From positions 1 to 64,000 of the forward strand of contig JAITUZ010000017.1 of NCBI GenBank assembly GCA_031286065.1: a DNA stretch of 64,000 bases, in the 5' to 3' direction. Shown piece after piece: positions 1-63,438 of the stretch (its first letter is position 1; each line of letters opens with the position of its first letter). A program made the translations under genes and the position numbers. The stretch comes from Candidatus Methanimicrococcus odontotermitis (GTDB lineage: Archaea > Halobacteriota > Methanosarcinia > Methanosarcinales > Methanosarcinaceae). Under the pieces are notes generated by a model, which worked only from the letters and a program-made list of their open reading frames with translations, was not told where the DNA came from and ran no database searches.

Positions 1-100
1 TGTATCTGTCTCACCGCATGTGTATCTGTCTCACCGCATGTGTATCTGTCTCACCGCATGTGTATCTGTCTCACCGCATGTGTATCTGTCTCACCGCATG
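1..100. repeat. Tandem repeat, 5 perfect copies of 20-bp TGTATCTGTCTCACCGCATG, possibly continuing left of the window
   Basis: Direct reading of positions 1-100. Confidence 0.97.
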
Positions 101-398
101 CATCTGCTCTTTTTTATGACAGCCGTTCGCTGACGCGAACGTGACCGCTGCTGCCTTGCCGATTCCGTTTTGGTTGCCACCTTGCCAACTTCCGTTTTCG
201 CCGCCTTGCCGACTTCCGACCGCATGCCGCGCACAAGCCGCCGCGCGCGAGTCACCGCAATTCAAAAAATAATGAAAACCGCCCTGTGTTTTTACAAAAA
301 TTGAAGAAAGCAATGAAAAAAAGAGAAGGAAAAAAAGAGAAGGAAAAAAGAGAAGGAAAAAAAGAAGGAAAAAAGAGAATGAAAAAGAGAGGACGGAA

Positions 399-44337: not shown

Positions 44338-44353
44338 AAGCCAACGTCCGGAT
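44338..44353. repeat. attL candidate (tRNA-Cys 3'-end fragment)
   Basis: AAGCCAACGTCCGGAT identical to 63366-63381. Confidence 0.85.
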
Positions 44354-44563
44354 GTGGACTGATTTGCATCAGCAAAATCGCCACGAGACGGACGACATAA
44401 AACTCATTTTGTAATTCGTCATTAGTCGCCGTTTCCGGACAAGGCTTAATTTAATACCACTTTTGTTTTCATAATCAGCCCTCGATAAAACACTGATTTG
44501 AAAACAATCCGGTTACCAGCCGGGGTATATTATTAAATACTGTTTATTGTAATATATAATTTT

Positions 44564-45376
44564 ATGCCATTTCTAATTCCGGTTTATTATTACAGACAAT
44601 GGAGATATGCGCAGCATTTAATTGAAACCGGCTATTGTAAGCGTGTAAAATGCATATATTTAAAAGGAAGAAGATGCGGTCATGGTCACCGACCACTTAT
44701 CATGGAAGAAGAACACGTATTTACATGCTTAAGTGTGAAAAAATCAAATCCTGCAAAAAAAGCCATTCGCCGAGTAAAAAGATTAATAAGGAATCTAAAA
44801 TCAGATATTGTTTATGGAACAAAAATCCGAAATCGCGGAACAGTAATCCTGAAAAACGAGCACGGAATAATTGTAGTACAGGAACCAAACGGAAGCTGGA
44901 GTTTGCCTGGCGGCGGGATAAACATAAATGAATCAGATATGGAATGCGCATTGAGGGAATTAAGAGAAGAAACCACAGTAAAAGGAAAAAATTCAAATTA
45001 TCAATTTGAAATTAAAGGTCGAATTCACAGAGATCGACATGGGAAACGTTATATAAATTTATATAAAATATTTGAAATCACCGAATATGAAAACAAACCG
45101 AGGCCATCAAACGAAATTAGAAAAATCGGATATTGGAGATCGGGAAAATACATGAGATTAACATCTACAACTAAAAAAATCCTGGATATATATCAAAGAC
45201 CATGGAGAACACCGCAATTCAGACAATATTGCAAGTCGGTAAACTGTGCGTATGGAGATGAGAACGGTTGCGGAATAGATAGACCGGAGTTAAATCCGCC
45301 GGATGAACCGTCAACATGTTTTGAAGATGGCGTTCCATGTTGTTATGATATGCGTTCATTGGATGACGGCCATTAA
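44564..45376 (+). CDS. Nudix hydrolase flanked by two related Cys-rich (putative Zn) modules
   Basis: Nudix box GGININESDMECALRELREETTV; YCKRVKC...CGHGHRP...TC and YCKSVNC...CGIDRP...TC. Confidence 0.9.
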   Translation: MPFLIPVYYYRQWRYAQHLIETGYCKRVKCIYLKGRRCGHGHRPLIMEEEHVFTCLSVKKSNPAKKAIRRVKRLIRNLKSDIVYGTKIRNRGTVILKNEHGIIVVQEPNGSWSLPGGGININESDMECALRELREETTVKGKNSNYQFEIKGRIHRDRHGKRYINLYKIFEITEYENKPRPSNEIRKIGYWRSGKYMRLTSTTKKILDIYQRPWRTPQFRQYCKSVNCAYGDENGCGIDRPELNPPDEPSTCFEDGVPCCYDMRSLDDGH

Positions 45377-45480
45377 TTAACAACAATTCGGCAGAAAATA
45401 CTTATATAAAGATGAAAATAATAACGTATTGAAATGAATTGGCTTTACCAGAGCCAAAACATCTTTAAAACCAAACCTCG

Positions 45481-45852
45481 ATGAATATGACACAAACAAC
45501 AATTAGCGGAGCTCCCGCTGTAGATTTTACAGGTAAAGTCATTGAATACATTGCATATGGCGCAGGCGCCAAAGGCAAAAGAGACGGACGATACGAAATT
45601 CTGAAAATGTCCGGAATTTCAAGCACACATTTTTTAGTACTCGGCCAAAATATCAATACAAAACTGTATGTTGTTTTTGAAGCCGACCTTTACTCATTTA
45701 ATACTGCTCCCACCCTTGTTTATCCGTCGTATTTAATCAAAAGTCCAGAATTTGCGGAACAAAATTATAATAACCGTCTAAACAAAATCAATCGGCTGAA
45801 AACTCCGATGGATGAAGTCCGAAATATTGACAGATTGCCGGCGGTGGTCTGA
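45481..45852 (+). CDS. Provirus hypothetical protein
   Basis: Operonic ORF, TGA stop, adjoining next gene. Confidence 0.65.
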   Translation: MNMTQTTISGAPAVDFTGKVIEYIAYGAGAKGKRDGRYEILKMSGISSTHFLVLGQNINTKLYVVFEADLYSFNTAPTLVYPSYLIKSPEFAEQNYNNRLNKINRLKTPMDEVRNIDRLPAVV

Positions 45853-46281
45853 ATGGTTCAGGATTTGGCAACATTGTGCCGGGATCTCGGAACAATTTTG
45901 GAAATGAAGGAATCCGTGTCTCTTTTAGAAATAGTCGCATTGACGGAGGAAAAGCAGCTTCGAATTAAGGCTGTCATAGATTTACTCATGCTGAAGGACA
46001 AAAGCATTGAAGTGAAAGGAACGACATACACCTACAAACCGATAAAACAAGATGCCATCGTTTTGTATCTTGTATTCACAACGAACTCAATCGTTGACTC
46101 ATTTTATTTTGACCCGGAAGAACCATCTCCGACTGCGGCAGAAATTGCTGAAAAGAATTTTGTGGCCGCTTTTCGGGATGAAAATGAAGCCATGGGTTTT
46201 GCGCACAACAATGGTTTTCAAGTGCTTAAAATTGAAGAATTTATTCCTGAAGAAGATGATGAGCGTCTGTTGGTGATATGA
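45853..46281 (+). CDS. Provirus hypothetical protein
   Basis: Operonic, end-to-start contiguous with neighbours. Confidence 0.65.
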   Translation: MVQDLATLCRDLGTILEMKESVSLLEIVALTEEKQLRIKAVIDLLMLKDKSIEVKGTTYTYKPIKQDAIVLYLVFTTNSIVDSFYFDPEEPSPTAAEIAEKNFVAAFRDENEAMGFAHNNGFQVLKIEEFIPEEDDERLLVI

Positions 46282-48753
46282 ATGACCATCAGACCAAATG
46301 GGAAAAAAGTTTCAACTCCGAATCCGGATGAAATTTTCAAAGACATGAATCCGAGAGTTTACACTAAAGAGGATTTAAAAAAACACGAAGACCGATTGAA
46401 AGAAATTTCAAAAGCCGAAACTGGATGGAAATTAGAAATCGTTGCTGTCCAGGAACAAACCATTGCTACATGTATCGGCTTTGAAACGCCACACAAAGGG
46501 CTTTAGGATATTCTTGTTGAATTTGAATATAATAAGAAAAAGAAAGGAAAAGCAAAATACACATTCAATTTCACAATTAACGAATTTAATGACAAACTGC
46601 AGCATGTTGAGAAAAATCTCAAAATCAATACCATAAACCCGATTGCAAAAGATGAAAAGTTTGAAAATGAACTGAAGACTTTTTTAACCGAAGCAGGCTA
46701 CAGCAAAAAGTATCTTCACATAAAAATGGCAACAGGAAGTATTCTGAGCATCTGGCAAGAATGGGAACCAAAAGAATTTCAAGCCTTATTTCCAGAAATG
46801 GTTTATAAATCTCCAAAATTAGATTACGCACCGGAAGATTGGATTTACCAAGACTGGATTATTGATTATCCGTATGATATCGATACGAGGAATGGCAAGC
46901 TTTACCGTTACATCATCAACAAAACAGAAGATGGCGATGACATCAAAGTACTGATTTCGGATTTGGTACTGGTTACAGCTGAGTACCAAGATATGGCCAA
47001 GGAAAATGAAATTTATTTCCGGTACCTAATCAGAAATGGCAAACGGAAAGTACAGACATTCATGATGTCAGCCGGAAAAATTTCAGACAAGGAATTCATG
47101 GATGACATTCGCCGCTGCATCATTGTGATTTATGGAGAGGAGAAGCATTTCAACCGATTTTTAACACTGTTCGCAATGCGGAACCGTGATGAAAAGAAAT
47201 TAGCCCATTATTACTTCAGTTCCCGGACAGGTTGGATCACACTTGAAGGAAAACAGTATTTCTTACTCGGAAGCCGTTTTTTTGACATAGAAGATAATTA
47301 TATGAGTCCGGCAGTTCCGACCGATGAGCTGGCCGGTCATGAGGAGTTTTTTGCCGGCATTGCAGATTCCGGAAACTATAGCGAATGGATTAAAGAATGG
47401 ATACCGGCTATTCAAGCTGAGGATCCGACCGGCTGTCAAATCTTCCTTGAGAACACAAACCTTTGGTTTACCGTTTATGCTCTTTCCGCTTCATTTTTAA
47501 TGAATATGTTTCCGGGAATGGAAAATACATTAATCATTAATAGCGGCACCACGTCTCGCGGAAAATCTACGATCGCAAAAATTGCGGCCAGCATGTTCGG
47601 AGACCCGAAAAAATTCATCACGCTCGGCAGCGGAACAGAAAACGGAATTTGGAATGCCTGGCTGAAATGGAATTATTTGCCGTCAATCATGGACGAATTC
47701 ACAAATACGAAACAAGAAATCAAAAACAAGATTCCGTATTGGTTCAGTGACGGGAAGGAAAAAGCGCGCTTAAATAAAGACGCGACAGCCAAAAGAACGA
47801 ATGAATTCCGTAAAATCGGCTATATTTCACTTGAGAATGATTTTGTGAATCAAGTCATGCGGTCAGGAGTCGATGCCCGTGTGATTCCCATTTATGACGG
47901 TTTGAATCTTCCGGACACTGAAGATGAAGAAGTCAACACCGCACGCGCAACACTCATTGATGATCTGGCCAGAGTGAAATCTCACAAATATTTCGGTTTT
48001 TACAAATATGAACTGCTCAAAACCATCAGCGAGGTGGGAACAGACAGAATAAATGAGATTTATGAAAGTGTTTCAAAAACATATACGACAACAAATGACA
48101 CTTTAACAGCGCGTCTGGGAGCAAGTTTCGCTCTGTTTCATGTTTCGGGGATCCTCGTTGAAATGACAAATGAACGGCTGCAGATCCGCAACCAAACTTC
48201 ATCTGAAGAACTTCATGAAATGGTTGAAACTCGCTGCAAAGAAATTCTGGATCAAGTCGTTCAAAATATCGGTGATCATGATTGGCAGGTTGTTCTGGCT
48301 GATGTCTTGGCCCGTGCGGACAACTCTGAAACTCGCACGCGCTGGCTGACGGACGAGCAATTGATGTACCCGTACCGCCCCGATGATGAATGTTCAATCC
48401 GATATCCGGACAAAATTGAGGCCTGGTTTTGCAATGATGGCATGATTGAATATGTCGATGTGGCACCGGATATTCTCAAAACGGTCTGCATATCAACAGT
48501 GGGAAAACCGTCAATGAATAATGTTTTAAAAGAATGGACGGACAAAAAAATAATCAAACCATTAAGAGATGACCAAAAAACAGTCATGCAACGCCATTAT
48601 GATGTTCAAGGCGGCAAAAAAGTCAGGACACCGGTTTATCGGATTAACCTTCAGAAAGCCAAAGAATTGACCGGATATGATCTGATGTATCGCCGGCGGG
48701 AATTGCTGGATGAAATTCAAAGTGATTTAGAAGATTTTGATTCTACAAATTGA
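46282..48753 (+). CDS. DUF927-like helicase/primase-type ATPase containing an in-frame TAG at codon 75 (candidate pyrrolysine)
   Basis: Track ORFs 46282-46506 and 46726-48753 share one frame with no other stop between; Walker A NSGTTSRGKSTIAKIAASMFGDP; DEFTNT. Confidence 0.82.
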
Positions 48754-48836
48754 GGGATTAAAAGTGACAATAACAGTCGAATAAGGAATCTAATGTTATA
48801 AATTAAGGAATTTAAGGAACAGAGATATTTTGTTTT

Positions 48837-49874
48837 TCACTCCTGTTCCGATAAATTATACTTTGATTTAACTCTTTTTTCAATATCCTCAATCGAAGGA
48901 AGAGTATCTTCAAACTCTTTTGGCAAGTATTCTGTTAATTTATATTCACTTACACCAATGGGTTTTGTCATATCTTTCAAGGCATATTCAGCAATTGTTT
49001 TATTTTTGTTCCGGCATAAAATAAGCCCGATAGAAGGATTATCTTTTTCCTTTTTTAAAAGTTCATCTACGGCTGAGAGATAAAAATTCAACTTGCCGGC
49101 ATATTCCGGTTTAAACATCCCTGCTTTTAACTCTATCACAAAATAACAATGCAGATTCGTATTATAAAAAAGTAAATCAATATAAAAGTCTTCACCGCCG
49201 ACTTCTAAATGATACTGATTTCCAAGAAAAGCAAAACCCGTTCCAAGTTCCAAAAGCAATTTGGAAATATTTGAAACCATCTCATTTTCAATGTCACGTT
49301 CAACCATCTGATCTTTTGCCTCAATAAAATCAAACCAATATGGGTCTTTGAGTGTTTGAACAGCAAGTTCGCTTTGTGCCATATCAAGCCGTGCCGGATA
49401 ATTCGTTGTTTTAGATGCTGAAATTTGGCGCTGGTATAAGTGGGATTCGAGTTGATGTTCTAATACTCCGACTGACCAGTTGTTTTCCGCAGTTTTTAAA
49501 ATATACCACTCCATTTGCCCTCGATCTTTCACTTTATCCAAAATGGACTTATTATGCGTCCACGGAATTTGTGCAGTCACTGACTGCACAAATTCAAGGT
49601 CATTATATGTTGACGCAAATTTTTGCATGTATTTTAAATTCCTCACGGAATAACCTGTAACATTTGGAAAGTCAGCTTTAATGTCCCGCGACAGATTTTC
49701 CACAAATTTATTGCCCCACCGCTTATTTTCAAGTATGATATTTCCGATATTCCAATATAGAGTAAGCAATTCCCGATTCGCGCCGACAACAGCCCTATAC
49801 TGTGCGGTTCTAATTTGAGACTTGATCTCCTCTAAAATACTAAAATATTCGGAATTATTTATCAGCATATGCAT
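48837..49874 (-). CDS. PDDEXK nuclease-domain protein (DUF1016/YhcG family)
   Basis: ARTAQYRAVVGANRELLTLYWNIGNII-like N-term, AQIPWTHN, FYIDLLFYNTNLHCYFVIELKAG...GLILCRNKN. Confidence 0.93.
   Translation of the reverse strand: MHMLINNSEYFSILEEIKSQIRTAQYRAVVGANRELLTLYWNIGNIILENKRWGNKFVENLSRDIKADFPNVTGYSVRNLKYMQKFASTYNDLEFVQSVTAQIPWTHNKSILDKVKDRGQMEWYILKTAENNWSVGVLEHQLESHLYQRQISASKTTNYPARLDMAQSELAVQTLKDPYWFDFIEAKDQMVERDIENEMVSNISKLLLELGTGFAFLGNQYHLEVGGEDFYIDLLFYNTNLHCYFVIELKAGMFKPEYAGKLNFYLSAVDELLKKEKDNPSIGLILCRNKNKTIAEYALKDMTKPIGVSEYKLTEYLPKEFEDTLPSIEDIEKRVKSKYNLSEQE
49565..49595. repeat. Perfect 15-bp inverted repeat (31-bp near-complete palindrome) inside the DUF1016 gene
   Basis: GAATTTGTGCAGTCA-C-TGACTGCACAAATTC. 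Confidence 0.95.
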
Positions 49875-49948
49875 TCTCCAGATATTTTCAACGCATCATT
49901 CATATAAAAACCAAATTGGAATAATTGAAGAATTTATAATCTGAAGAG

Positions 49949-50275
49949 TTAAATTATCTCTTCATCACAATACTCTTTTTCTTCTAATTTTGCCCAGCTA
50001 CGGACAGCCTTGTAAAGTTTCCAAACGGAAAGAAAAAGTAAAATAGGTCCAGCAATCGGACTAAGCATCCGAATGGAAAAACTGGAAAGGTCTTCTAATG
50101 CCAGTTCCATGAGGGTGCTAAACTCCCAATCCCAATAAATGATGGCGAGAAGCACTAAGATATACCAAAACAATAAAATTAAAGATAAAAAAAACAAAGA
50201 AACATAAATCAAAATTGTTCTTTTTATTTTCTTTTTTTCATTGATGACTTCCTGATCAGTGTCTGCAATTGTCAT
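49949..50275 (-). CDS. Small two-TM hypothetical protein
   Basis: 108-aa ORF with two hydrophobic helices. Confidence 0.55.
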   Translation of the reverse strand: MTIADTDQEVINEKKKIKRTILIYVSLFFLSLILLFWYILVLLAIIYWDWEFSTLMELALEDLSSFSIRMLSPIAGPILLFLSVWKLYKAVRSWAKLEEKEYCDEEII

Positions 50276-50420
50276 AAGTATAAAAATACCGGTACAGATA
50301 TAAAATGGTTATGTGAAAATAAAGGAAACTGCAATCATTTTTCAAAAAGTGTTATTTTATAATAAAATAATACTTTGAATTCACACTTGATAAAAAACTT
50401 ACAAAAATTGAAAAAAATAA

Positions 50421-50721
50421 CCATGACAACCATGACAACTTAAAAAATAGGCATATTGCTATTGATAGTTCACTGATGCTTTTTTGATTTACTGTTATTG
50501 TTTTTTTTGTCATGGTTGCATACCATGACAATACCATGACAACCATGACAGAACCATGACAACACCACGACAAAAACAAAGTTGTCATGGTTGTCATGGT
50601 AAAAAATAATGTTGTCATGGTTCCAAACCATGACAAAAAAACAAGCATTAGAAGGATGAAAAGAGAGCGGCAAAAAACAGAATCTGACGGAATCATTTAA
50701 TGTTGTCATGGTTGTCATGGT
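50421..50721. repeat. Iteron-like array: 13 exact CCATGAC/GTCATGG copies plus one variant, in nested inverted arrangement
   Basis: Copies at 50421,50430,50509(-),50523,50534,50543,50554,50584(-),50593(-),50614(-),50628,50705(-),50714(-); variant CCACGAC at 50565. Confidence 0.95.
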
Positions 50722-51025
50722 GAAAAACACATCATTTTTATTTTTTTGAAAAAACTGAAAAAAGCTGAAAAACCGATTTGTGTTACTCCGGAAAAATAAA
50801 AAGACGAACGAATGAGACTTTTAAAAAATAGAGATTCAGAAAAAAGACAAAAAAATTCTGCATTTTATTCAAAAAAAAGACGAAAATTTGATAAAAAATT
50901 GATTTTTTATTATTACAAAAAATAACCGATTGCGTTTTTAAAAATTTTATTCAGGATTTTATTTCGGAAAGAATAAAAAAGAGATGAGGAGACACGAAAG
51001 TATAAAACAGGAACAGGAGAGCATA

Positions 51026-51535
51026 TTATAAAAAATAAACCAAAACTGACAATAAAATATTTCCAAACGTGCAGCTGATCAAAGCGGCCGGTAAAAATCC
51101 GACAAGTCCGGGCGCCGGGCGGTCAGGCTGAAGAAACCGGAACAAAAGCAAGATAGGAACTGACAGAATCATAAAATTGCAAACAATGTCAAGAGCCGGA
51201 AGTGTCCCGATTCCGGGCAAAATCAAACCATCCGGATAAACCGGCAAAAATAGAATTAACCCGGAAAAGATTTTGACATCAGCCGCGCCGATTGAACCGA
51301 ACATGACAGCACCAGCAGAAAAAACATAAGATAGGACAAAAAGAATGATACCGATTATTATTTCGTGAAATGTCACCGATTTTAAAAACAAAAAATCAAT
51401 AAAAATAAAACAAGATACGCAAATCAAAAAAACGCTTAAAAGCAACTTATTTGGAACGCGCCGGGTCTTAATATCCAGCGGCATGAAAATAAAAGCAATC
51501 GACATCATAAATAAAACTGAAGCAATTGTGAACAT
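51026..51535 (-). CDS. Prepilin/preflagellin peptidase-like aspartic protease (A24 type)
   Basis: DIKTRRVPNKL and GxHyD-type GAADVK motif in multi-TM protein. Confidence 0.8.
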   Translation of the reverse strand: MFTIASVLFMMSIAFIFMPLDIKTRRVPNKLLLSVFLICVSCFIFIDFLFLKSVTFHEIIIGIILFVLSYVFSAGAVMFGSIGAADVKIFSGLILFLPVYPDGLILPGIGTLPALDIVCNFMILSVPILLLFRFLQPDRPAPGLVGFLPAALISCTFGNILLSVLVYFL

Positions 51536-51541
51536 GATTTA

Positions 51542-51907
51542 TTACTCCCGGATTCGGACTTCTTTTAAAAACGCTTCAAGGGTTTCCCTCAAAAGGCAGC
51601 TCATTGAACAGCCGATCTTCTCGGCATCACGCTTCAGATCATCCCGCATCTCGGGCGAAACCTGCACCAAGAGAACTTTCCATTTTTTGGCCGAAATTTG
51701 ATCCTTTTGATTGCCGGTGTCGGTCGAAAAATCATGGTCATAATTTTGAAGTTCTTGATGTACCCGATTCCAAACCAGCCTGCAGACGGCTGCCCGGCTC
51801 ATGTTCATCAACTTTGCTTTTCGGTCCAGCTCCGCGGCAGTTGAGCGGCTGATCATGATTCTTATCTGGACTTTTTTGTTCGTTTCAGGCGCCGGTGTTC
51901 CGGCCAA
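51542..51907 (-). CDS. DNA-binding regulator with two tandem ribbon-helix-helix-like domains
   Basis: VQIRIMISRSTAAELDRKAKLMNMSRAAVCRLVWNRV and KVLLVQVSPEMRDDLKRDAEKIGCSMSCLLRETLEAFL. Confidence 0.72.
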   Translation of the reverse strand: MAGTPAPETNKKVQIRIMISRSTAAELDRKAKLMNMSRAAVCRLVWNRVHQELQNYDHDFSTDTGNQKDQISAKKWKVLLVQVSPEMRDDLKRDAEKIGCSMSCLLRETLEAFLKEVRIRE

Positions 51908-51972
51908 AATGACTGCGGTTTCCGTTTGAAATTCCCCCGGGAAAAGCGATTCAAAAATCTCATTGTCTCAAA

Positions 51973-52080
51973 ATTATACAATGCGGTTTAAATAGGAAAT
52001 ATCAGCATTATTGTAATATAATGAATTTTGAAGATTAACATTATACAATATTGTATAAATGCATTCGTTATTGTATTAAT
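51973..52080. promoter_or_regulatory. Divergent regulatory region with perfect 18-bp palindrome TTATACAATATTGTATAA (52041-52058) and extra half-sites
   Basis: ATTATACAAT at 51973, palindrome at 52041, ATTGTA motifs near 52010 and 52069. Confidence 0.7.
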
Positions 52081-52220
52081 ATTGTTTGCCTGAAAGGGCA
52101 GGAGTGATACAAATGACCGTATTAGTCAACAAATCAACAATATTGACGGAAATTTATTGTTCAATTCTCATGATTTGGACAACAGTTCAAAGGAAGGTAA
52201 CAAATAAACTGAAACAGACG

Positions 52221-52559
52221 ATGTCAAACTGGAGAACAGTCATGAGCATCGCTGTTGCGAACGCTTATTCACCGATTAACGGCGCAAAGACCATTTACAA
52301 AACATTTTATGCGGAAGATGCCGTTGAGCGAGGATCTCTAACCGATGCTGTTGTCGGCCTATTCGTTTTTGGTATGGTTTTGGTTGCGGCATACATCGGT
52401 ATCGGCATGGTTGAGCCCTATTTACCAACAAGTGATGGAACGCTTGATGCCGATGCACAGAAGACGCTTGACACCATCCGCGCAGCTCTCGGCATTGCCG
52501 GCGTCTGTATGATTTTCATTTCACTTGGTTTATTGATTGCGACATTGCGCAGCTGGTAA
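52221..52559 (+). CDS. Candidate major capsid protein (two-TM, spindle-virus VP1-like); the track start 52086 is also possible
   Basis: ERGSLTDAVVGLFVFGMVLVAAYIGIGMVEPYLP...AALGIAGVCMIFISLGLLIATLRSW: two hydrophobic helices with short loop. Confidence 0.55.
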   Translation: MSNWRTVMSIAVANAYSPINGAKTIYKTFYAEDAVERGSLTDAVVGLFVFGMVLVAAYIGIGMVEPYLPTSDGTLDADAQKTLDTIRAALGIAGVCMIFISLGLLIATLRSW

Positions 52560-52575
52560 TATCAAGAAGGAAGAG

Positions 52576-52869
52576 ATGGCGATGGATGGAATTCTTTATT
52601 CTTTATTTTCGGCAGTCGCGATTCTCGGCGTCTGGATCGGCATAATTGAATTCCGGCTTTCCCGGTCAACTGACGCGGTCATTTTTCCCGGGACATCTCT
52701 CCTTTTAACAATTTTATTGATGATTTCATCAAAATTTGTAGAAACCGAACTGTTCAGTCCGGCTGAAAGTAATTTCATATTTGCTTTTTGGCTCTGCATG
52801 TTCATTTTAAGCTTTGGATTAATGTTTGTCATGGCTGCCGGAACATTCCGGTCTGAAGGAGTTAAATAA
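52576..52869 (+). CDS. Small three-TM provirus protein
   Basis: Start at MAMDGILYS with upstream AAGGAAG; TAATG overlap with next gene. Confidence 0.7.
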   Translation: MAMDGILYSLFSAVAILGVWIGIIEFRLSRSTDAVIFPGTSLLLTILLMISSKFVETELFSPAESNFIFAFWLCMFILSFGLMFVMAAGTFRSEGVK

Positions 52870-53336
52870 TGTCTGAAATGGGAAATCAATCGGATTACGC
52901 CGGACAAATTACACCGGAAGATATTGTGAAATTGAGGCAAGCCGGCCTCGGAGCCGAAATTTCGAAGTTGTTTCTGGAAGATGAATTTGTCGAAGATATG
53001 ATCTCTCCGGAAGTCAAACCTTATTTTGATGCAATCCGAAAAGTCGGCATCGGACAGTATGATAAAAAAGATGTCGAGAAGCTGTTGAAAAAAATTGACT
53101 CGATGAAAACGACATTCATCATGTCATCAATGGAATCAGAATACACATGGCAGCATGAGCGTGAATTTACGATGCTGAGTGTCCTCGCGATTAAAAACAC
53201 AAGCATGGGAATTGACGGCACATTCCTGAAACGTGCATTCGGCAGCATTCAGGAAACGAATTTGGTTCAGACCATGAACAGTCCGCAGCAAGCGCGGCCC
53301 GGATTAATCGCTTCATTTTTCAGTAAAAAACGATAA
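52869..53336 (+). CDS. Provirus hypothetical protein
   Basis: Operonic ORF with start/stop overlap. Confidence 0.7.
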   Translation: MSEMGNQSDYAGQITPEDIVKLRQAGLGAEISKLFLEDEFVEDMISPEVKPYFDAIRKVGIGQYDKKDVEKLLKKIDSMKTTFIMSSMESEYTWQHEREFTMLSVLAIKNTSMGIDGTFLKRAFGSIQETNLVQTMNSPQQARPGLIASFFSKKR

Positions 53337-53361
53337 TTGAAAAACCTCCGGACGGATTAAA

Positions 53362-54384
53362 ATGGATTCATTGTGGATTTGGACAACGTTTTTCTTTGGA
53401 ATGGCATGCGGACTGTTGTTTATTTTTTCCATCGTTTATATAAAATGGAGCGGCCCTTACAGCTGGGTTATTTTTAAGGCAAGGCTGAACGGATACCGCG
53501 TCAGTTGGTTTATTGATAATCATGGTGAAGTCCATCCGGAAGCCGTAAAAGGAGAATTCGGCTATCATGCGGCTGATGCAGGAATTTTCCTCCCGGATCC
53601 GGACAATCCGGTTTCAACCGACCGTGGAAGACACAAAGGCGGTGTTTTTGACACAAACATGGCCGCCGGAATCAATTTTATTTTGATGAAAGCCGCAAAA
53701 AAACTTTCAAAAACAAATACTAACGGGCACACAGAAACAGTCAGCGGAATAAATCAAACGATTATTGAGTCGAATGAACTGGCGGAAGTCAAAGCCGGAG
53801 AGTTCGAAGAAGAAATGTTAGAGGAGCTGGCTGATGCCGGCGGACAAGCTGACGCAATGATTGTTTCGGCGAGAGAAAAAGCGTTGGATGAGCTGAAAAG
53901 TATCAGAGAAGAATTTTATAACTCAGAGGAAGTTACCGATGAGGATTTAAAAAAGAGACTTGAAGACGCTTTTGAAATTATTTATGCTTCAGTGACCGAA
54001 GAATTCACTGAGGAGTCATCGAGTGAAAAAATTGCCGAGAAATTAACGCCGGTTATTGAAAAATATACAAACAAAGTCGAAAAGCTTAAAAAAGAGTTTG
54101 GAGACCGGCTTCTTTTGAGCGACACTGAAATTAAAGCGCTCCGTCATTATTATGTATTGAACCAGCCGCAATACGTTGAGAAAAAGCTTCAGGCATCGGT
54201 CAATGAAGCTGTTTCGCGCGAAAAGAACAATATGAAGACATTCATGATGATTGCCGCGTTTGTCATTGTTGCATTTCTTGCCGTCGTTTTGGCAATTTAC
54301 TTACTCGGCAACGACCCGACTGTAATCATTCAAAACGGCTCGGATTTTATAACGGCCAATAATTCAACAACTCTTCCGATGTGA
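53362..54384 (+). CDS. Provirus membrane protein, TM at both ends with coiled-coil middle
   Basis: N-term FFFGMACGLLFIFSIVYI; C-term FMMIAAFVIVAFLAVVLAIYLL. Confidence 0.72.
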   Translation: MDSLWIWTTFFFGMACGLLFIFSIVYIKWSGPYSWVIFKARLNGYRVSWFIDNHGEVHPEAVKGEFGYHAADAGIFLPDPDNPVSTDRGRHKGGVFDTNMAAGINFILMKAAKKLSKTNTNGHTETVSGINQTIIESNELAEVKAGEFEEEMLEELADAGGQADAMIVSAREKALDELKSIREEFYNSEEVTDEDLKKRLEDAFEIIYASVTEEFTEESSSEKIAEKLTPVIEKYTNKVEKLKKEFGDRLLLSDTEIKALRHYYVLNQPQYVEKKLQASVNEAVSREKNNMKTFMMIAAFVIVAFLAVVLAIYLLGNDPTVIIQNGSDFITANNSTTLPM

Positions 54385-54869
54385 TAGACATGTCAGATAG
54401 TTTATTCTCTCAAAACCCGCATGGCGGTCTTTATTCCTCAGTCGGTCAGAAAGGGCTGTACCGGCAGGAAATATCAGTTGATGTTTTAATGTTTCTGGAT
54501 GCGAAAAAGAGTTTTTATTCTGATTTAAAAATAAAACATCGTTTTCCGGATTGTATTGAATCATACGAAGACCTGTGCAGTGAGATGTACGGAATTGTTG
54601 AAAAAGTGAAACCGATCCTGCTTGTCAAAAATAACAAAAAGGATGTTGATCCGCTTGGAATTGCCCTCGTTGATGAACTCGAACAATTCTTTGCATAGAA
54701 GGATTCGGGATTTGATCATAAAAAAATTGAATTAGCCGCAACAAATGCGAATTTGATTATTGAAATGGCGGATTCACTACTGAAAATGCTTTACAGTAAA
54801 GAGATTTACGATCCATCGATCATGTTTAAAATGGACAGTCCGGGAACTGCATACAGGAGGTCTATGTGA
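54381..54869 (+). CDS. Provirus hypothetical protein with in-frame TAG at 54696-54698 (162 residues if TAG is sense)
   Basis: Open frame continues KDSGFDHKKIELAATNANLIIEMADSLLKMLYSKEIYDPSIMFKMDSPGTAYRRSM to TGA overlapping the next ATG. Confidence 0.72.
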
Positions 54870-55783
54870 TGCCGAGCGTATTCTTGCGTGACGCTCTTGT
54901 GAAATAGAGAAAGGAATGCGAAGTAAAAGAACGGGAAGATGCCGAGGGAACGAAAAAACCTGTTCTTCGTTTGCTTCAAAAAAATTTGGAAGGGATTGTC
55001 CGCGTTTGCAAAGAAAATCGGCTCGATTGGCCGATTAACGTCGTCGGTGCGGAAGGTTCGGGAAAGTCAACGCTTGCCGCACATATTTCTCAAAAGCTGG
55101 CCGAGATGACCGGGCAAGAGTTGGATTTGGCAGAATCGATGATTTATTCGTTTGACGAGCGTGATCGCCATGGAGCTCCGCTTAAAAACTCATTGGTCGG
55201 ATTCGTTGACAAGTATCAATCAACGGAATTTAAAATATTATGGTATGATGAAGCTGTCACTGTTCTTTTTTCGGACGAACACGCAACGAGAGAATCAAAA
55301 GAGGCGAAAAAACTGTTTATCACGAAGCGTGACATGTGCCATTTTGATATTTTAGTATCACCGTCACCGTTTCACATCATCAAGGATATTCGGAGCCGCC
55401 GCGTTAAAACAATGATTTATTGCTTCATCATGGAAGATCCGGAAACAAAACGCTTCAAGCACAAATATGCCTGGTACTCGGCCGATAAAATCGTTTCAAT
55501 GTCATACGGTTCGAATCAGAAAAAAGCTGAAGTTCTGTTCCGCCGGCCGAAACAATTTATAAACGCGTTTCCGCCGGATTTTATTGAAGATTTCCCGAAA
55601 ATGACGCAAGAATTCGAAGAAAAATATCTTTTGACAAAGCGCACATTCATGAAAACGTATATTGACTCACTCGTCGGCGGCGAAAAAACAGCTGCTGATT
55701 TAGTGCTTCCTGAGAATTTCAGCTTTATACCGGTCTTTGACAAGCTGGTCGGCAAAACTGCCGGCGGCGAGGAGGCCGTCTGA
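54869..55783 (+). CDS. P-loop ATPase (candidate viral packaging/AAA-type) with in-frame TAG at codon 13
   Basis: AGGAGGT SD at 54855-54861, ATG 54869, MPSVFLRDALVK-TAG-RKECEVKEREDAEGTKKPVLRLLQKNLEG...; Walker A GAEGSGKST, Walker B-like ILWYDE. Confidence 0.82.
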
Positions 55784-58569
55784 TGGCATACGGAAAAGCA
55801 ACTGTTGTGGATTCGGGAAACTCATCGGGATCGCTTACCAATACCGTCCGCGAAGCCGCCGGAAACGCTGTACGAAATGCGCAGAATTCCGGCGCAAGCA
55901 AAGCCGATGTAATTAAAGCACGAGATGCGGCGAAAGAAAGTGTTTATGCCGGTGCTGTTCAAGCCATCAATACCGGTGGCAGTTATAAAGGGATGAGTGC
56001 ACAGCAGCTGCATAATGAGCTTTACGGCGGACTGGAACAAACGGCGACTCAACACGGAACACCGATTGCACTGGTTCAGAGCCGCAACCATTTGCAGAAC
56101 ATGCAAAATGCCGGCTTCTATGACGCTGAATGGAATCCCACAAACAAAGCATTGCAAGGGCAGATACAGAAGAACCAAAGCCAACCGCCAATAACTGTAA
56201 TAGATTTTAAGCCGGCGGCCGTCCAACCAAAAGAACTCAGCATCAGAGAGCGCATTAATTACGAATCGATGAGACTTAAAGAATCAAAGATTCCAATAAT
56301 AAGAGGAGCTGCGGCTTACCTTCCGAATTATTATGATCCGGAAGTTATGGAGAAAGCGAAAGAAAACAACATTGATTTTAATGAGGTTGCTTCGTCAGTT
56401 TCTTCCTTGATGGGCCCGATCGGTATTCTGAATATTTCAGAAAGTGATAAAAATCCGTTTCGAACTGACAAAAACAAATTGGTGGATGCGACTTTAGAGG
56501 GTCTTTTTTATGGATTTACCGGTGAAGATGTTTCCGGAAAAAGTGAAATCGTCCAAGCGGCCGGCAATCGCGGAACAAACTGGATTGATGCGAAGACAGG
56601 TGCTTTGCATGAGTGGTCTATGCGAAATTTGGACGGGCGATTCTATGAGATTGGATCATTTGTTCGCGGCATGGTTCCGGATTCAATTGTCGGTGTCGGC
56701 ACATTGATTAGTGAAGGGACAAAGACAATTACAGCCGGCTTCCGGGAAGCGAAAAAATCAGGAGCAAACCTGACAGGAATCACCCGTGGTCAAGCGATGT
56801 CAACGTCTTTTGCCGGCATGCTCGGGTTCGGTATCGGCACAATTGCCGGCGGAACAGTAAGAGGAGCAATAGACGACCCGATTGCCTTTGCCGGCGGATT
56901 GATTGGAACCGGCGGTGCAGGCGGTATTGGGAAGTTGGGCATGGGAGTTGGGAAATTCAGATTGAAAGCTTTCAAACAAGCCGCAGGTAAAATTGATGTT
57001 TCACTCAAAGATTTGGGCGTTGATCCTAAAGTGATTAAGATGGGAGGAGATGTTTACAGACTTGAGGGGAAAGCAGCGTTTCCGGATGCTTATCCTGTTA
57101 AGACTGGAATTAAAATGCATGAAGGAGTTTCGATGCTGGAAAATGCAAAAAATCTCTACCCGGGGGAGAAATCCGGAAGCACCGCGATTATTCACTCAAG
57201 TCCAAAAAACAGAGGAGATATTTACAGTCCGCATGTCGGAAAGTCTTCGGAACCAGGCATGTTTGGAGCAGAATCACCTTCAATCCGATTTATGAAGATT
57301 CCATATTTTAAAAATGCAAAATTGGTCGGATTTTCAAATCCTTTCAGCCCATCTAAGTTAAATGAACTCAGTCCAAGAATTATGTTTATTGAGGGGAAAG
57401 GAATTAGATCACCAGAAGTCACATCAGGGGTTAAAACAAATAAGTTTTTACTAAATGATGCAGATGCTGGTTATTTCTGGACAACTCATAAGATGAGACA
57501 AAGAATTGAGAGCGGAAAGCTTGTAGAAGTAGAAGCTGTCGTTTCTCCAAAAACCACAATTTCGACCTACGACAATAAACCGTATTCTGATGCAACTCTT
57601 TACAGAATCGAATCAAAATACCGAACAACAGTTAAACAGCCGATTGATTTCCCCGGAATTAAAATGGATGTTGATTTAAAAGTGCCTGTTGAAAAATATA
57701 TTATGGTCACGGCTGATGATATGGCCTTAGTTCCAGTTTCGGCGCCGGCAAAAAAATCCAAGTTTTTTTCTCCAGATTCGCATGGAAAAGACGGTTCTTT
57801 GACTTATCCGGTCGGAACGAATATGAATCTTCACACGGGACCGAAACCGATTAGAACGGTCACCGAAATTTCAAAAAAAAACGGCAGCATCAAAGAAATG
57901 TTTACAGCCCGCCGAACAGCTTCAGCTGATGTTGTCAATAGGCATAAAGCCGGCATGGCTTCAAAAAATTATGATGCGAAAAAATTGTTTGAATCCGCCA
58001 AATCTAAAAAGACCGCGTCTGCCGAATCTAAACCGATTACATCTGCCGCGTCTCCAACCGCTGCGCGGATCAGCGAGCTGACGGACGGGAAAAATGCCGG
58101 CGATCTGATAAAAAAAACATCAAACACACAAAGCATCGAGGACTTGATTCGAAAAAAAGCACCACCGAAAACAAAAAAGTCGGACTCCGGAAGCAGCCGC
58201 AAATCACCAAAACAGCCGGCATATCCTCTTGTCGATTTAACATACAGCCCTTTGGGTGTCTCACGCGGCGCCAAATCCAAATCAAAGCCCTCTAATTCTC
58301 GCGGCGGTTACTACAGCCCGACCTCGGGGTATGGATACGGCAGCAGTAAAAGTTCATCTCCCGGTTATTCCGGATATGGAGGCGGCAAAAGTTCATCATC
58401 AAAAACGGCACCGTCTAAAGCAACAACTCGACCGATTGTACATAAACAGACATCAAAGAAATTAAAGAAAGAAGAACCAATCAGTCCCGCTAAACGGACA
58501 AAGAAAACCACGAAAAAATCAACAAAGAAAGAATTTAGGGTTAACCCGCTCAGGGGGCTGAAAATCTAA
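55783..58569 (+). CDS. Large provirus structural-type protein with Ser/Lys/Gly/Tyr-rich basic C-terminus
   Basis: 928 aa; central Gly-rich hydrophobic segment; TGATG start overlap. Confidence 0.7.
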   Translation: MAYGKATVVDSGNSSGSLTNTVREAAGNAVRNAQNSGASKADVIKARDAAKESVYAGAVQAINTGGSYKGMSAQQLHNELYGGLEQTATQHGTPIALVQSRNHLQNMQNAGFYDAEWNPTNKALQGQIQKNQSQPPITVIDFKPAAVQPKELSIRERINYESMRLKESKIPIIRGAAAYLPNYYDPEVMEKAKENNIDFNEVASSVSSLMGPIGILNISESDKNPFRTDKNKLVDATLEGLFYGFTGEDVSGKSEIVQAAGNRGTNWIDAKTGALHEWSMRNLDGRFYEIGSFVRGMVPDSIVGVGTLISEGTKTITAGFREAKKSGANLTGITRGQAMSTSFAGMLGFGIGTIAGGTVRGAIDDPIAFAGGLIGTGGAGGIGKLGMGVGKFRLKAFKQAAGKIDVSLKDLGVDPKVIKMGGDVYRLEGKAAFPDAYPVKTGIKMHEGVSMLENAKNLYPGEKSGSTAIIHSSPKNRGDIYSPHVGKSSEPGMFGAESPSIRFMKIPYFKNAKLVGFSNPFSPSKLNELSPRIMFIEGKGIRSPEVTSGVKTNKFLLNDADAGYFWTTHKMRQRIESGKLVEVEAVVSPKTTISTYDNKPYSDATLYRIESKYRTTVKQPIDFPGIKMDVDLKVPVEKYIMVTADDMALVPVSAPAKKSKFFSPDSHGKDGSLTYPVGTNMNLHTGPKPIRTVTEISKKNGSIKEMFTARRTASADVVNRHKAGMASKNYDAKKLFESAKSKKTASAESKPITSAASPTAARISELTDGKNAGDLIKKTSNTQSIEDLIRKKAPPKTKKSDSGSSRKSPKQPAYPLVDLTYSPLGVSRGAKSKSKPSNSRGGYYSPTSGYGYGSSKSSSPGYSGYGGGKSSSSKTAPSKATTRPIVHKQTSKKLKKEEPISPAKRTKKTTKKSTKKEFRVNPLRGLKI

Positions 58570-58805
58570 TGGTCAGTTATCAGCTCCTCGTCTTCGGAAT
58601 CGGTCTTGTTGTATTCGGAATAGCGTTTACTTTCATTAATGACCAGTTATATGACATGACGGCAGCCGGTCTGATCGGATATACCGGGATTAATGAAACA
58701 TTCCTATTCGGCCAATATTGGCTGGATTTTTTATGGGGACTCTTCCCTTCATTGGTTTTTGTCACAGGTGGTCTGTGGTGTTCAGCAAGGGCAATGAAAG
58801 GGTGA
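58569..58805 (+). CDS. Small two-TM provirus protein
   Basis: TAATG overlap; hydrophobic helices. Confidence 0.68.
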   Translation: MVSYQLLVFGIGLVVFGIAFTFINDQLYDMTAAGLIGYTGINETFLFGQYWLDFLWGLFPSLVFVTGGLWCSARAMKG

Positions 58806-58811
58806 TTCAAA

Positions 58812-61220
58812 ATGAAATTAATAAAAACACTCCTCACCCTTTTATTTTTATTCATATTGATGCAGACAGCGAACGCCGAAACGGGTTTGTATGAATTCCC
58901 TGTCGGAGTCGGCGACAACACGCTAGACTTAGGAAACGCATACAACGGCTCATATGTCAATTCCATAACCGGAACTGTTTATGAATCTTCTTTGCATTAT
59001 CAGGAAGTAACAATTAATGTTCCGGACACTGATAAGATAGGAACAAAAAGAACGCTGAAGCTGGATGTTCTGTTTACTGACGGAATGAAATTGGATTTTT
59101 CAGATGTTTATTTCACGGATCGGAATTTTAATATTATTCCGATATATCGTGACATGAATTCGACTGTCAATGGGAGCAATGCTACTTTTTATTTGTATTT
59201 CGACAGCATCGCGGCTCAAAACGATTTATACATGTGCTGGGGAGTCGGGTCGAATCCAAAACAAGATTCGTATGTTTTTTTGGCAAATTTTGGAAATGGG
59301 GAGACATATACCACCAGTGTCAATTTCAACGTGTATCGTCCGGAGAGTTTATACAATATTTCGACATCGCCTGCGTCTACTTTTAATTATACGAATGCTG
59401 AAGTTATTTTCTCGATGAGTGGTTCCGGCTCGAATCATAATACAGCGCCATGGCTAAGACTGAAAATAAATTCATCAAATAGTTCTGCTCTCACTAATTC
59501 TGTCGGTACATGGGTTGAGGGCGGCCGATTGTTTTTAATAACGTTTCCAGGTTGGATGCAGACAGAAATTCGTCCAATTTCCACAACTATCATCAAACTT
59601 GAATCTTCTCTGATAAATTCGACTTTAGTTGGAAATGCAAATAATATAACATCAATCTGGGATCTTACAAATAATGACTGGACTAATGTTTTTAGTTTTA
59701 ATCGCGGGTCCGGTTCCATAACCATTTATTCATTTAAAACATATAATTCTACAAATTTTACCGCAAGTTTCGGAGAAATTAATAAACTCGTAGCTTCGGA
59801 ACATCCGATTACAATCTCTTATCCAGCTTCCGATTTTTCGACATTGGATTTTGAATCAGAGTGGGTCGGAAATTTAGAATTTAGAATAAATTATGACCCC
59901 CATGCCGTTTTGTCAACGCCGAACGATGCAACATTCCAAGAAACCGCCATTCTGCAATTTGAAATAAACCCGCAAAATCTGCAGCTGCCATATCAGATCG
60001 CTCTTGACGACACTTTTTTCAGCATCGTCAATTCCGGATCATCGTCCGGAATCATTTCAGTAAAGTTGCCGGCAAACAATTATTACTGGAGAGTGATGCA
60101 GCCGGACGGAAATTATTCGGATATTCGGACGTTTACGGTCACAGAACCGGGACCGATTCAGGGGTCATTAAATTTTACAATAAGAAATGAACTGACAAAC
60201 ACATCTGTGTCGGCAACCGTTACGATTTCAAACAACACAACAACTTTACAAAAAACAGGTTCTACTGTTACATTTAACAGTTCCGAAGTCACGGCCGGCA
60301 ATTACTCGGTTCGTGTCAATTCAACAAACAATTCAACGCGGTTTTATGAAGTCGTTAGTCCGGGAGATTATACTCTTTATATTTTACCGATAACGGTGAA
60401 CACATCCGTTGTTTATTTTTCGTTGATTGACAACACAAATCAGTTTCAATACAATTCGACCAAACTCGAAATCATAAAACAGACAACGAACGGTTCAATT
60501 GTTGTCACAAGCAATTATTTTGATGCGTCCGGCTTTGTTGTCACAACTCTTAATCAATTCGATAATTATATTCTTAAAGTCGTTTCGGATTCAGGAACTG
60601 AAAGAATTTTGGGAAACTACATTCAGGCCGGTCAAACATCAATCCAACTTGTCATTTCAGAAATTATCTTGAAGGATCCTGATGTTAACATACACGGAGG
60701 ATTCACTTACAATCTGAAGAAATCTCTGGAAGGAATTAAACTTGAGTGGCGGAATCCGAACAGTGATGCATTAACTGAGCCATTTACGTTCAAAATCTTA
60801 AAGGATGGGGAGCAGGTGATGAACATTACATCGACCGCACCTTTCGGCCTAATTCATTATATTGATACAGGCGGCGGCGAACTTGATCCGAATGCGACAT
60901 ATGAGATCATCTTTGAGGCCGAAACAACCGGCGGAAAAATTAGGGTTCACGAATTCTACAAAATCAGCGGTGAAATAACCGGAATTAACTTTGACATTAT
61001 CCCGGCACCAGTGAGAATCATTGTGACAATTGGACTGCTCGTTCTTGTGGCCAGCCAATTCAACACAACAAACGCTAAATTTGCAGCGGTTGTCGTATCA
61101 GTTATTGCATTATTCTTATCGTTTGTTTCATTCTTTCCGGTCGGAAATGCAATATTGGTTTTCGTTTGGCTGCTGTTCATTGCAGTCGTTGCACTGAAGA
61201 CGAGCAGGAGGTTCGGATAA
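58812..61220 (+). CDS. Large exported adhesin/spike-like protein with C-terminal TM segments
   Basis: Signal peptide, N/T/S-rich ectodomain with Ig-like repeats, C-terminal hydrophobic helices. Confidence 0.75.
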   Translation: MKLIKTLLTLLFLFILMQTANAETGLYEFPVGVGDNTLDLGNAYNGSYVNSITGTVYESSLHYQEVTINVPDTDKIGTKRTLKLDVLFTDGMKLDFSDVYFTDRNFNIIPIYRDMNSTVNGSNATFYLYFDSIAAQNDLYMCWGVGSNPKQDSYVFLANFGNGETYTTSVNFNVYRPESLYNISTSPASTFNYTNAEVIFSMSGSGSNHNTAPWLRLKINSSNSSALTNSVGTWVEGGRLFLITFPGWMQTEIRPISTTIIKLESSLINSTLVGNANNITSIWDLTNNDWTNVFSFNRGSGSITIYSFKTYNSTNFTASFGEINKLVASEHPITISYPASDFSTLDFESEWVGNLEFRINYDPHAVLSTPNDATFQETAILQFEINPQNLQLPYQIALDDTFFSIVNSGSSSGIISVKLPANNYYWRVMQPDGNYSDIRTFTVTEPGPIQGSLNFTIRNELTNTSVSATVTISNNTTTLQKTGSTVTFNSSEVTAGNYSVRVNSTNNSTRFYEVVSPGDYTLYILPITVNTSVVYFSLIDNTNQFQYNSTKLEIIKQTTNGSIVVTSNYFDASGFVVTTLNQFDNYILKVVSDSGTERILGNYIQAGQTSIQLVISEIILKDPDVNIHGGFTYNLKKSLEGIKLEWRNPNSDALTEPFTFKILKDGEQVMNITSTAPFGLIHYIDTGGGELDPNATYEIIFEAETTGGKIRVHEFYKISGEITGINFDIIPAPVRIIVTIGLLVLVASQFNTTNAKFAAVVVSVIALFLSFVSFFPVGNAILVFVWLLFIAVVALKTSRRFG

Positions 61221-61589
61221 ATGGAAACTTATAAAATTACAGTTTTTTTGATAATTTTGAATTATACAATCTTCGCATTTGCGGCACTTGGTGTTTTCCC
61301 GATAGAGTATCCGTATATCAGCGAATATATCGACCCGTCAACATTTTCCGGAAACGTTCCCGAAAATATCAGTTATGACAGTATCAGCTACGGCAATTAT
61401 ATTTTTGGCGATTTCATTCGAGCGCTTGTCATGATTGCCGCACTGCTGGTCATTGCACCGTTTGCGCTTGCGTTTTTATTAAACTCATTGGGCATTCCGA
61501 CATTGATTTCAACACTTTTGATCATCATGCTGTCAATTATTTATATCAAAGATTTGGCTGAGTTCATTGGAAACCGCATTATAAAATAA
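61221..61589 (+). CDS. Small multi-TM provirus protein
   Basis: Operonic, hydrophobic segments. Confidence 0.68.
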   Translation: METYKITVFLIILNYTIFAFAALGVFPIEYPYISEYIDPSTFSGNVPENISYDSISYGNYIFGDFIRALVMIAALLVIAPFALAFLLNSLGIPTLISTLLIIMLSIIYIKDLAEFIGNRIIK

Positions 61590-61604
61590 CAGGCGGCGAT
61601 TAAA

Positions 61605-61916
61605 ATGCTTGAATACTTCGGAGTTTATGATATGATGCAGACAGGCGATTACATGGATATCGCACTCCTTGCTTACATCCATACATACGGCATTGTATTC
61701 TGGCTTGCTATTTGGGCCGTGTTGATGATCATCCTGTACATTAAAAATGAAGATTTGACTTCCGTTATGGTTTTAACAGCGATAATGCTTACGGCAACCG
61801 GCGTTTATTCATCCCAATATGATTTCTTCCCGATTCAGGCGGTAGCCTTCGGCATCATCATTATCTGCCTGATTTCCGCTGGTGTTTTGTACAGATATTA
61901 TAACACAATGGAGTGA
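61605..61916 (+). CDS. Small multi-TM provirus protein
   Basis: Operonic, hydrophobic segments. Confidence 0.68.
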   Translation: MLEYFGVYDMMQTGDYMDIALLAYIHTYGIVFWLAIWAVLMIILYIKNEDLTSVMVLTAIMLTATGVYSSQYDFFPIQAVAFGIIIICLISAGVLYRYYNTME

Positions 61917-62194
61917 TTAATTTGGTTGTAGCTTCAAGACGAAAAGTGACATGGATAGAAGCCATTGCCGGCACACTTGTTGGTTGGACAGTCCTCTATA
62001 TCCTTTACAGCGCAATCATCCCGCACTTTGACAATTTAATGACAATGGCTTTGGGTTACGGCGTCCCGGAAGAAATATTGAATCAAATCCGGCTTTATTT
62101 AGTCATCGCGCTGATTATAATCGGCATTGTGCTTTTTTTGTATATGTTTCTGGCTGCATTACTGGTTGAGTTTGATCAATATCAAAGCTACTGA
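61913..62194 (+). CDS. Small two-TM provirus protein
   Basis: ATG/TG overlap with previous gene; hydrophobic segments. Confidence 0.65.
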   Translation: MINLVVASRRKVTWIEAIAGTLVGWTVLYILYSAIIPHFDNLMTMALGYGVPEEILNQIRLYLVIALIIIGIVLFLYMFLAALLVEFDQYQSY

Positions 62195-62288
62195 CAAGTA
62201 CCGGTTTTGACAATAAACTTTTTTTATTTTTTCCAAATGTATGGGATGTGGCGGGCTACCGCCGCATGAACAATTCGGAGATATAAAA

Positions 62289-63233
62289 ATGGAAAAAATT
62301 CTAAACCAATTCCATGTTTTTTTAATAAAACAAGGCAAAGACAAAAGAGTATGCAATTCATACAGAAATGATGTCCGGACATTCTGCGAAGTTTGCAAAA
62401 TAACAAATGTTGAACAATTGAATTTTAAAAAAGCTTCGGAATATGATCCGATTTTTTTGACTTATATCAATTGGCTGAAGGATGTCCGGAAAAACAAATA
62501 CAAAACAATGTGCAGAAAGCTTTCAGCCCTTGAAAAATTCTTTGCGTTTTTGGTCAGATATGATTTTATCATCATGGATCCTGTTCCAAGCTTCAGGCAA
62601 TTTAACATGCAAGAACACAAAACAGAAGATTCTGAAATGAGAATGCTGCCGGAACCAAAAGAAGTAAAAGTTACCCTAAAAAACAGTAACAACATCAAAC
62701 TTTTTTTCATGATCGCCCTATTGGCAAAATCCGGTGCACGCCGGCAAGAAGTCATTGATGCCGACCACGAAGATTTCAAAATCGAACGCAAAATCTGGGA
62801 AGTGAAAAGCCATCCGAAACGAACAGGCAAAAAAATACCACTTGATGATGAATTGATTGCCATTTTCAAAATATATATGAAAACCAGAACGGACGATTGC
62901 CCTGCACTGTTCATTGGGAAAAGAGGGCGGCGAATAAATAAAGACGCACTGCGTGAAGACCTGACGGATGTATTCAGGAGATGCGGACTGTATAAAGACG
63001 GCGGTAAACTGGACGAACGTCTGACGCCGCATTGCTTCAGACATTTCCAAAATACACAATTGGATTTAAGCGGCCTCCCGAGAGGAATTTTAACAGAGAT
63101 TCGAGGAGATCAGCGGAAAGACATTGACAGCTGCGAAAGATACATCCATTACAATGAAAAGAACCTCGTGAAGATTTATAACCAACATAAAATAAAGCTT
63201 GTTGGAAAAAGCATGCGATTACCGAGAAAATGA
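62289..63233 (+). CDS. Tyrosine recombinase/integrase
   Basis: AKSGARRQEVIDA (catalytic R), HCFRH (HxxR), CERYIHYN (Y); adjoins tRNA; start at MEKILNQF preferred. Confidence 0.92.
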   Translation: MEKILNQFHVFLIKQGKDKRVCNSYRNDVRTFCEVCKITNVEQLNFKKASEYDPIFLTYINWLKDVRKNKYKTMCRKLSALEKFFAFLVRYDFIIMDPVPSFRQFNMQEHKTEDSEMRMLPEPKEVKVTLKNSNNIKLFFMIALLAKSGARRQEVIDADHEDFKIERKIWEVKSHPKRTGKKIPLDDELIAIFKIYMKTRTDDCPALFIGKRGRRINKDALREDLTDVFRRCGLYKDGGKLDERLTPHCFRHFQNTQLDLSGLPRGILTEIRGDQRKDIDSCERYIHYNEKNLVKIYNQHKIKLVGKSMRLPRK

Positions 63234-63365
63234 CAAAATCATTTTGTTAAAAAACTGCAAAAAAATAAGACAGCAAGAGAACGTTTTTCAAAAAGCTTTC
63301 AAAGAGTCTCTTGCTGCAATGGTTTTGTGGGAACCGCTGGCAACCGTTTTTATGGTACATGAATC

Positions 63366-63381
63366 AAGCCAACGTCCGGAT
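63366..63381. repeat. attR candidate overlapping 3' end of tRNA-Cys
   Basis: AAGCCAACGTCCGGAT identical to 44338-44353. Confidence 0.85.
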
Positions 63382-63438
63382 TTGAACCGGAGTAGATTCG
63401 CTCTGCAGGCGAACGCATAGCCGCTCTGCCACGTTGGC
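63367..63438 (-). tRNA. tRNA-Cys (GCA)
   Basis: Cloverleaf: acceptor GCCAACG/CGTTGGC, anticodon stem TTCGC-CTGCAGA-GCGAA, T-arm CCGGTTCAAATCCGG, U73 discriminator. Confidence 0.95.

Follow-up and report, generated by a model that had tools for sequence, protein, structure and literature searches.

What function is served by a dense cluster of short repeats inside an integrated element of Candidatus Methanimicrococcus odontotermitis, and which protein would act on it? The stretch of DNA analyzed here (64 kb of contig JAITUZ010000017.1, referred to as the window) contains 24 heptamers of the form CCATGAC/GTCATGG, while shuffled versions of the same sequence average 5.0 and never exceed 11. Thirteen of the 24 are packed into 302 bp (50420-50721), in agreement with an initial annotation, made from the letters alone, that had counted 13 exact heptamers and one variant in about 300 bp. 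The unit of the array is a 9-mer, ACCATGACA, which is followed by an A at 13 of 14 sites; 13 of the sites are exact copies and one is the variant ACCACGACA (50564-50572). The array and its parts are as follows.

50420-50721, no strand: iteron array, candidate replication origin, 14 sites of ACCATGACA (pattern search, repeats, symmetry and DUF927 association)
50420, 50429, 50522, 50533, 50542, 50553, 50564 (variant) and 50627, plus strand: the eight plus-strand sites
50508-50516, 50583-50591, 50592-50600, 50613-50621, 50704-50712 and 50713-50721, minus strand: the six minus-strand sites
50439-50506, no strand: left spacer, 68 bp and 75% AT by base composition, separating the left outermost pair of iterons from the sites further in
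50636-50703, no strand: right spacer, 68 bp and 66% AT, at the position that mirrors the left spacer

The layout of the array is nearly mirror-symmetric. Twelve of the 14 sites have a partner within 3 bp of the mirrored position; when spacings and orientations were permuted 5000 times, 11 of the permutations reached this degree of symmetry (computed with the minus-strand site at 50508 placed at 50507, inside the tolerance). The left outer arm is CCATGACAACCATGACAAC (50421-50439) and the right one its exact reverse complement, GTTGTCATGGTTGTCATGG (50702-50720), as the initial annotation had stated; the inner pair that it described likewise exists as an exact pair, but at 50532-50550 and 50583-50601 rather than at 50543 and 50582. 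Its view of the surroundings also held, since the flanks are 75–80% AT and the open reading frames spanning the array are repeat artifacts of the MTTMTT/LSWLSW type. The left AT-rich spacer is a possible melting region.

The array appears to be peculiar to this locus. Its presence at unrelated chromosomal loci had been named in the initial annotation as an argument against an origin; the double unit (ACCATGACA N0-3 ACCATGACA) has no further copy in its own genome, and among 184 other genomes of the order the pattern is absent, the window locus being the sole match. A search for the ACCATGACA word in other genomes and in viral contigs returned only unrelated tandem runs and coding repeats. The exact 18-mer is present in unrelated genomes, where the runs of at least four units that were examined are tandem and single-orientation, several of them sitting in coding HDN-type frames. 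A CRISPR array was ruled out: the unit is 9 bp long, in mixed orientation and at spacings of 9–78 bp, as opposed to direct repeats of 25–40 bp with unique spacers of similar size. A separate cluster of direct repeats, ACAGATACA.../GGTGAGACA in five to six copies, is found at the left end of the window (1-260).

The host element and its DUF927 gene

A 16-bp att repeat, AAGCCAACGTCCGGAT, present at 44338 and 63366, delimits the 19.04-kb element (44338-63381) in which the array lies. The features of the element that bear on the array are listed below.

44338-44353, no strand: attL, the 16-bp repeat AAGCCAACGTCCGGAT
46282-46725, plus strand: possible N-terminal extension of rep, candidate coding sequence, in frame from ATG 46282, with a TAG at 46504-46506
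46726-48753, plus strand: rep, DUF927 (PF06048) AAA+ helicase of 675 aa, proposed origin-binding initiator (Pfam, PHROG and PDB matches)
48837-49874, minus strand: YhcG/DUF1016 PDDEXK nuclease gene, between rep and the array
49949-50275, minus strand: predicted membrane protein of 108 aa with no Pfam match, starting 145 bp from the array
51026-51535, minus strand: A24-type (prepilin/preflagellin) peptidase-like protein (PF01478, E 2.8e-6)
51542-51907, minus strand: 121-aa protein with two ribbon-helix-helix (RHH)-like segments (RHH_1 and NikA-like matches weak and below cut-off; PHROG repressor families)
62241-63233, plus strand: tyrosine integrase, adjoining attR (PF00589, E 1.7e-13)
63366-63381, no strand: attR, the 16-bp repeat, overlapping the 3' end of a tRNA-Cys gene (63367-63438, minus strand)

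The remaining genes include a NUDIX gene, small ORFs, a series of membrane proteins, a P-loop ATPase and large proteins of unknown function; no separate primase gene was recognized in the element. A second, diverged relative lies on another contig of the same genome (C34; L103, 1-9516), with matching ATPase, 105-aa and 928-aa-type genes, double-RHH and A24-like peptidase genes in the opposite orientation, and an Abi-like gene. At the edge of contig C50 (L104, 143-361), about 220 bp are 87% identical to the window's integrase-tRNA-Cys interval and may mark the insertion of a second element at a different tRNA-Cys gene. Contig C13 (L105, 14473-14916) carries remnants of another DUF927 gene in pieces that are 40–50% identical and mostly from the C-terminal end, which suggests a decayed relative.

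The rep product falls into PF06048 (Pfam E 5e-21, above the cut-off) and matches a PHROG primase/helicase (E 2.6e-27). When searched alone against the PDB, it matched 8TCH ('Pathogenicity island protein', E 7.4e-13) and 5DGK ('Active helicase', E 2.5e-4), and a profile of 13 archaeal DUF927 proteins matched the same two structures at E 1.6e-63 (profile positions 45-579 of 608) and E 6.7e-47, respectively, extending into the C-terminal part of both. A profile built without the window protein spans rep from its N-terminal part through its C-terminal domain, and the alignment contains a Walker A motif (GTTSRGKS), a conserved DE and a C-terminal domain with a conserved Trp604. Judged from these matches, the rep helicase is homologous to the solved staphylococcal island helicases, and by homology it would be a DUF927 helicase of the self-loading type. 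Relatives of the protein were not found in the viral contigs searched.

Extended upstream, the rep frame (to 48753) reaches back to ATG 46282, which immediately follows the TGA of the preceding ORF, with a single TAG (46504-46506, codon 75) as its only interruption; no start codon (ATG, GTG or TTG) occurs between this TAG and ATG 46726. Because the host genome encodes PylS (368.6 bits, cut-off 178), pyrrolysine could be inserted at the TAG, and the initiator would then have 823 residues.

Repeat arrays on the 3' side of DUF927 genes

A set of 28 DUF927 loci, the window and 27 taken from further genomes of the class, was scored for clusters within 2.5 kb of the gene in which a non-palindromic 8-mer recurs four or more times in 350 bp, with two or more copies per strand. 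The threshold was a score of 9.5, and both the score and the threshold were chosen after the first 20 loci had been seen. Mixed-orientation clusters were found 3' of the DUF927 gene at 14 of the 28 loci (13 of 27 without the window) versus 1 of 228 control stretches (Fisher 1.4e-14, a value that overstates independence because the loci are partly related, L140 and L175 sharing a unit), and at none of the 28 within 2.5 kb on the 5' side. Of the loci fetched after the score had been designed, 5 of 7 from the class passed, as did 5 of 10 from bacterial phages that encode DUF927 helicases; in a second control set, 1 of 72 passed. Nearly all clusters at control loci are single-orientation tandem repeats. 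One control locus of genome G155 (L180, ~11079-11245) has eight mixed-orientation copies of AGTTTCTG, far from the DUF927 gene of that genome. Half of the class loci fall below the score threshold, and several of these have short arrays immediately downstream of the DUF927 gene, for example six copies of TGTCACA at L124, three direct and three inverted around an AT-rich gap (>>> AT-rich <<<). The sole DUF927 locus outside the class in a phylum-wide search (L202) has no array.

The units of these arrays are mostly unrelated (ATTATGAA, GTTACCAA, GTGGTATA, ATAACCAC, CGCCGGAC, AAATGATA, GGTACGAC, CTAATCCA, ACCTTACC, CCCGTAAC, AAGTAATA, GCTAATCC and AAGGGATA), the one common to L140 and L175 apart, and direct sequence homology of the arrays is absent because the units differ between elements. 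Over all arrays the spacing between same-strand neighbors peaks at 9 bp (42 cases), followed by 11 bp (17 cases); the same-strand spacings of the window array are exactly 9 and 11 bp. Among the phages, FP_Epona has ten copies of AGGTGAAA at +7 to +293, THSA-485A nine copies of CGGTTACC and PT1028 six copies of AGTTCCCG. In most relatives the array is found within 0–700 bp of the gene, or at about 1.7–1.9 kb where another gene follows rep. In the window it starts 1.67 kb past the rep stop codon, so that the iterons lie 3' of rep yet not directly downstream, because two opposite-strand genes displace them. The YhcG/DUF1016 gene in this interval is probably cargo, having a counterpart of 59% identity on contig C32, and its insertion between rep and the array would plausibly account for the displacement. 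Of the 63 genes near arrays (L125-L176, alignment A2), four matched family A DNA polymerase; bacterial polymerase-SSB pairs occur with DUF927 helicases (PMC10061031).

Relatives that share other parts of the element lack the array. Methanosarcina-type loci (L117-L121) have the ATPase (40–46% identity), the C-terminal half of the 802-aa protein and the 122-aa membrane protein, and no array was found at such loci, which carry the ATPase and other structural-type genes without DUF927. One of them (L119) encodes an apparent HUH-type Rep, so the structural module seems to travel with differing replication modules. On contig C34, with its ATPase, RHH and peptidase genes, no ACCATGACA array was found in 9.5 kb, and the replication module may lie beyond the contig. 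RHH families are absent from the 25 families most often matched by the 63 genes near 13 comparable arrays, so RHH proteins are not a shared neighbor of arrays. Taken with the array-less Methanosarcina-type loci and contig C34, the array therefore tracks the DUF927 gene and not the structural or RHH genes.

Candidate origin function and competing explanations

The recurrence of arrays 3' of DUF927 genes therefore supports the reading of the array as an origin and weakens its reading as an RHH-bound operator. We put the probability at about 0.86 that the array is the replication origin of the 19-kb integrated element and that the DUF927 helicase encoded by this element binds the iterons through its C-terminal domain. 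The initial annotation had left the choice between an origin and a multi-site operator; the arrays linked to DUF927 (14/28 vs 1/228 in the class, 5/10 in phages) favor the former half of that proposal, while the latter finds no support among relatives. The comparison thus supports both an origin function and the DUF927 protein as the probable binder. By this account, the C-terminal domain of the helicase would bind the fourteen 9-bp iterons, and by analogy with SaPI/PICI Rep the helicase would assemble as opposed rings on the two mirror halves, the loading of a double hexamer being modeled on a proposal for SaPI Rep. The helicase would then melt the AT-rich stretches, and replication of the excised element would start.

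Many replicons combine an origin with a regulatory or partition site in one region, and the array could similarly be a DUF927-bound origin that also serves another protein of the element. The number of sites exceeds that of most relatives and the leftward gene at 49949-50275 begins only 145 bp away, both of which would suit such a dual role, but with no second motif or second binder identified we consider it unlikely. RHH proteins are known to bind short repeats in tandem or inverted arrangement, and the double RHH protein (51542-51907), encoded 0.8 kb from the array, could in the style of the omega repressor and its heptads bind it as a multi-site operator or a partition site (centromere). 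This is quite unlikely, however, given the absence of RHH families from the 25 most often matched near comparable arrays, the lack of an array in the 9.5 kb of contig C34 despite its double-RHH gene and the same neighboring genes, and the absence of a ACCATGACA cluster from the promoter of the RHH gene itself. The array strand folds far better than shuffled sequences (z -9.8), as a hairpin origin, a packaging signal or a structured RNA acting in single-stranded form might, yet a strong fold follows automatically because the iterons are inverted. A search of Rfam gave no match, and relatives retain the iteron pattern with unrelated sequences, often as tandem runs, which makes a role for the fold very unlikely. 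Least credible of all is a neutral, functionless repeat expansion, for although the exact 18-mer also forms tandem runs in unrelated genomes, those runs have a single orientation and are often coding, whereas the window array is of mixed orientation, mirror-symmetric and tied to a DUF927 gene.

Relation to known origins and implications

The RepA/TrfA/pi-type initiators of iteron plasmids bind repeated short sites next to AT-rich DNA, and to this extent the favored reading of the array as a DUF927-bound origin resembles them; the difference is that these initiators are winged-helix Rep proteins that have no helicase domain and recruit the host helicase. SaPI Rep recognizes iterons directly downstream of its own gene through its C-terminal domain, and Cch, a DUF927 helicase, is related to SaPIbov1 Rep (PMC7581432). 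In PICIs the origin directly follows the 3' end of the initiator gene and invariably contains an AT-rich region with one iteron set on either side (PMC6092414). With these rep-ori modules the window element shares a DUF927 helicase homologous to the pathogenicity-island protein and to Cch, iterons 3' of rep, iteron sets around AT-rich DNA and a unit sequence of its own. It differs in its archaeal host, in the displacement of the array by 1.67 kb with two opposite-strand genes and in having no recognizable separate primase gene. Instead of the simple two-block form it has 14 sites in nested mirror halves with two spacers (75% and 66% AT). PICIs are phage satellites that depend on a helper phage and are packaged in its capsids; the window element is integrated, carries a structural-type module of its own with membrane and ATPase genes, and has no known helper.

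The likeness to SCCmec lies in Cch, the DUF927 helicase whose 5DGK entry was matched by the archaeal profile. Cch2 has a putative origin with short direct repeats downstream of its gene (PMC7581432), but it belongs to another helicase family and has three AAGTG iterons, and SCCmec elements use serine recombinases rather than a tyrosine integrase. Among archaeal replicons, the minimal replicon of crenarchaeal pRN1 requires sequence downstream of the replication operon, and the abstract describes no DUF927 protein or comparable iteron array (PMC4234260).

The principle of a helicase-iteron origin is thus known from bacteria, and the new part is its proposed extension to archaea together with the displaced, dyad-symmetric layout; no description of DUF927-linked iteron origins in archaea was found in the open-access literature searched, outside of which lie most subscription papers. 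More tentatively, and with more doubt than confidence, the elements of Methanosarcinales might form a class with SaPI-type iteron origins, each with its own iteron word and a self-loading DUF927 helicase that would bypass host Orc1/Cdc6 and MCM loading; here the initiator might read the in-frame UAG as pyrrolysine, which would tie replication to the supply of this amino acid. An origin function of the arrays would extend the SaPI/PICI type of helicase-iteron origin to archaeal integrated elements. At least 13 further archaeal loci provide natural pairs of initiator and iteron word, and therefore the recognition code of the C-terminal domain becomes testable. The arrays are also candidate origins for methanogen vectors, and they suggest a simple rule for finding origins in unannotated elements, which is to inspect the DNA 3' of the DUF927 gene.
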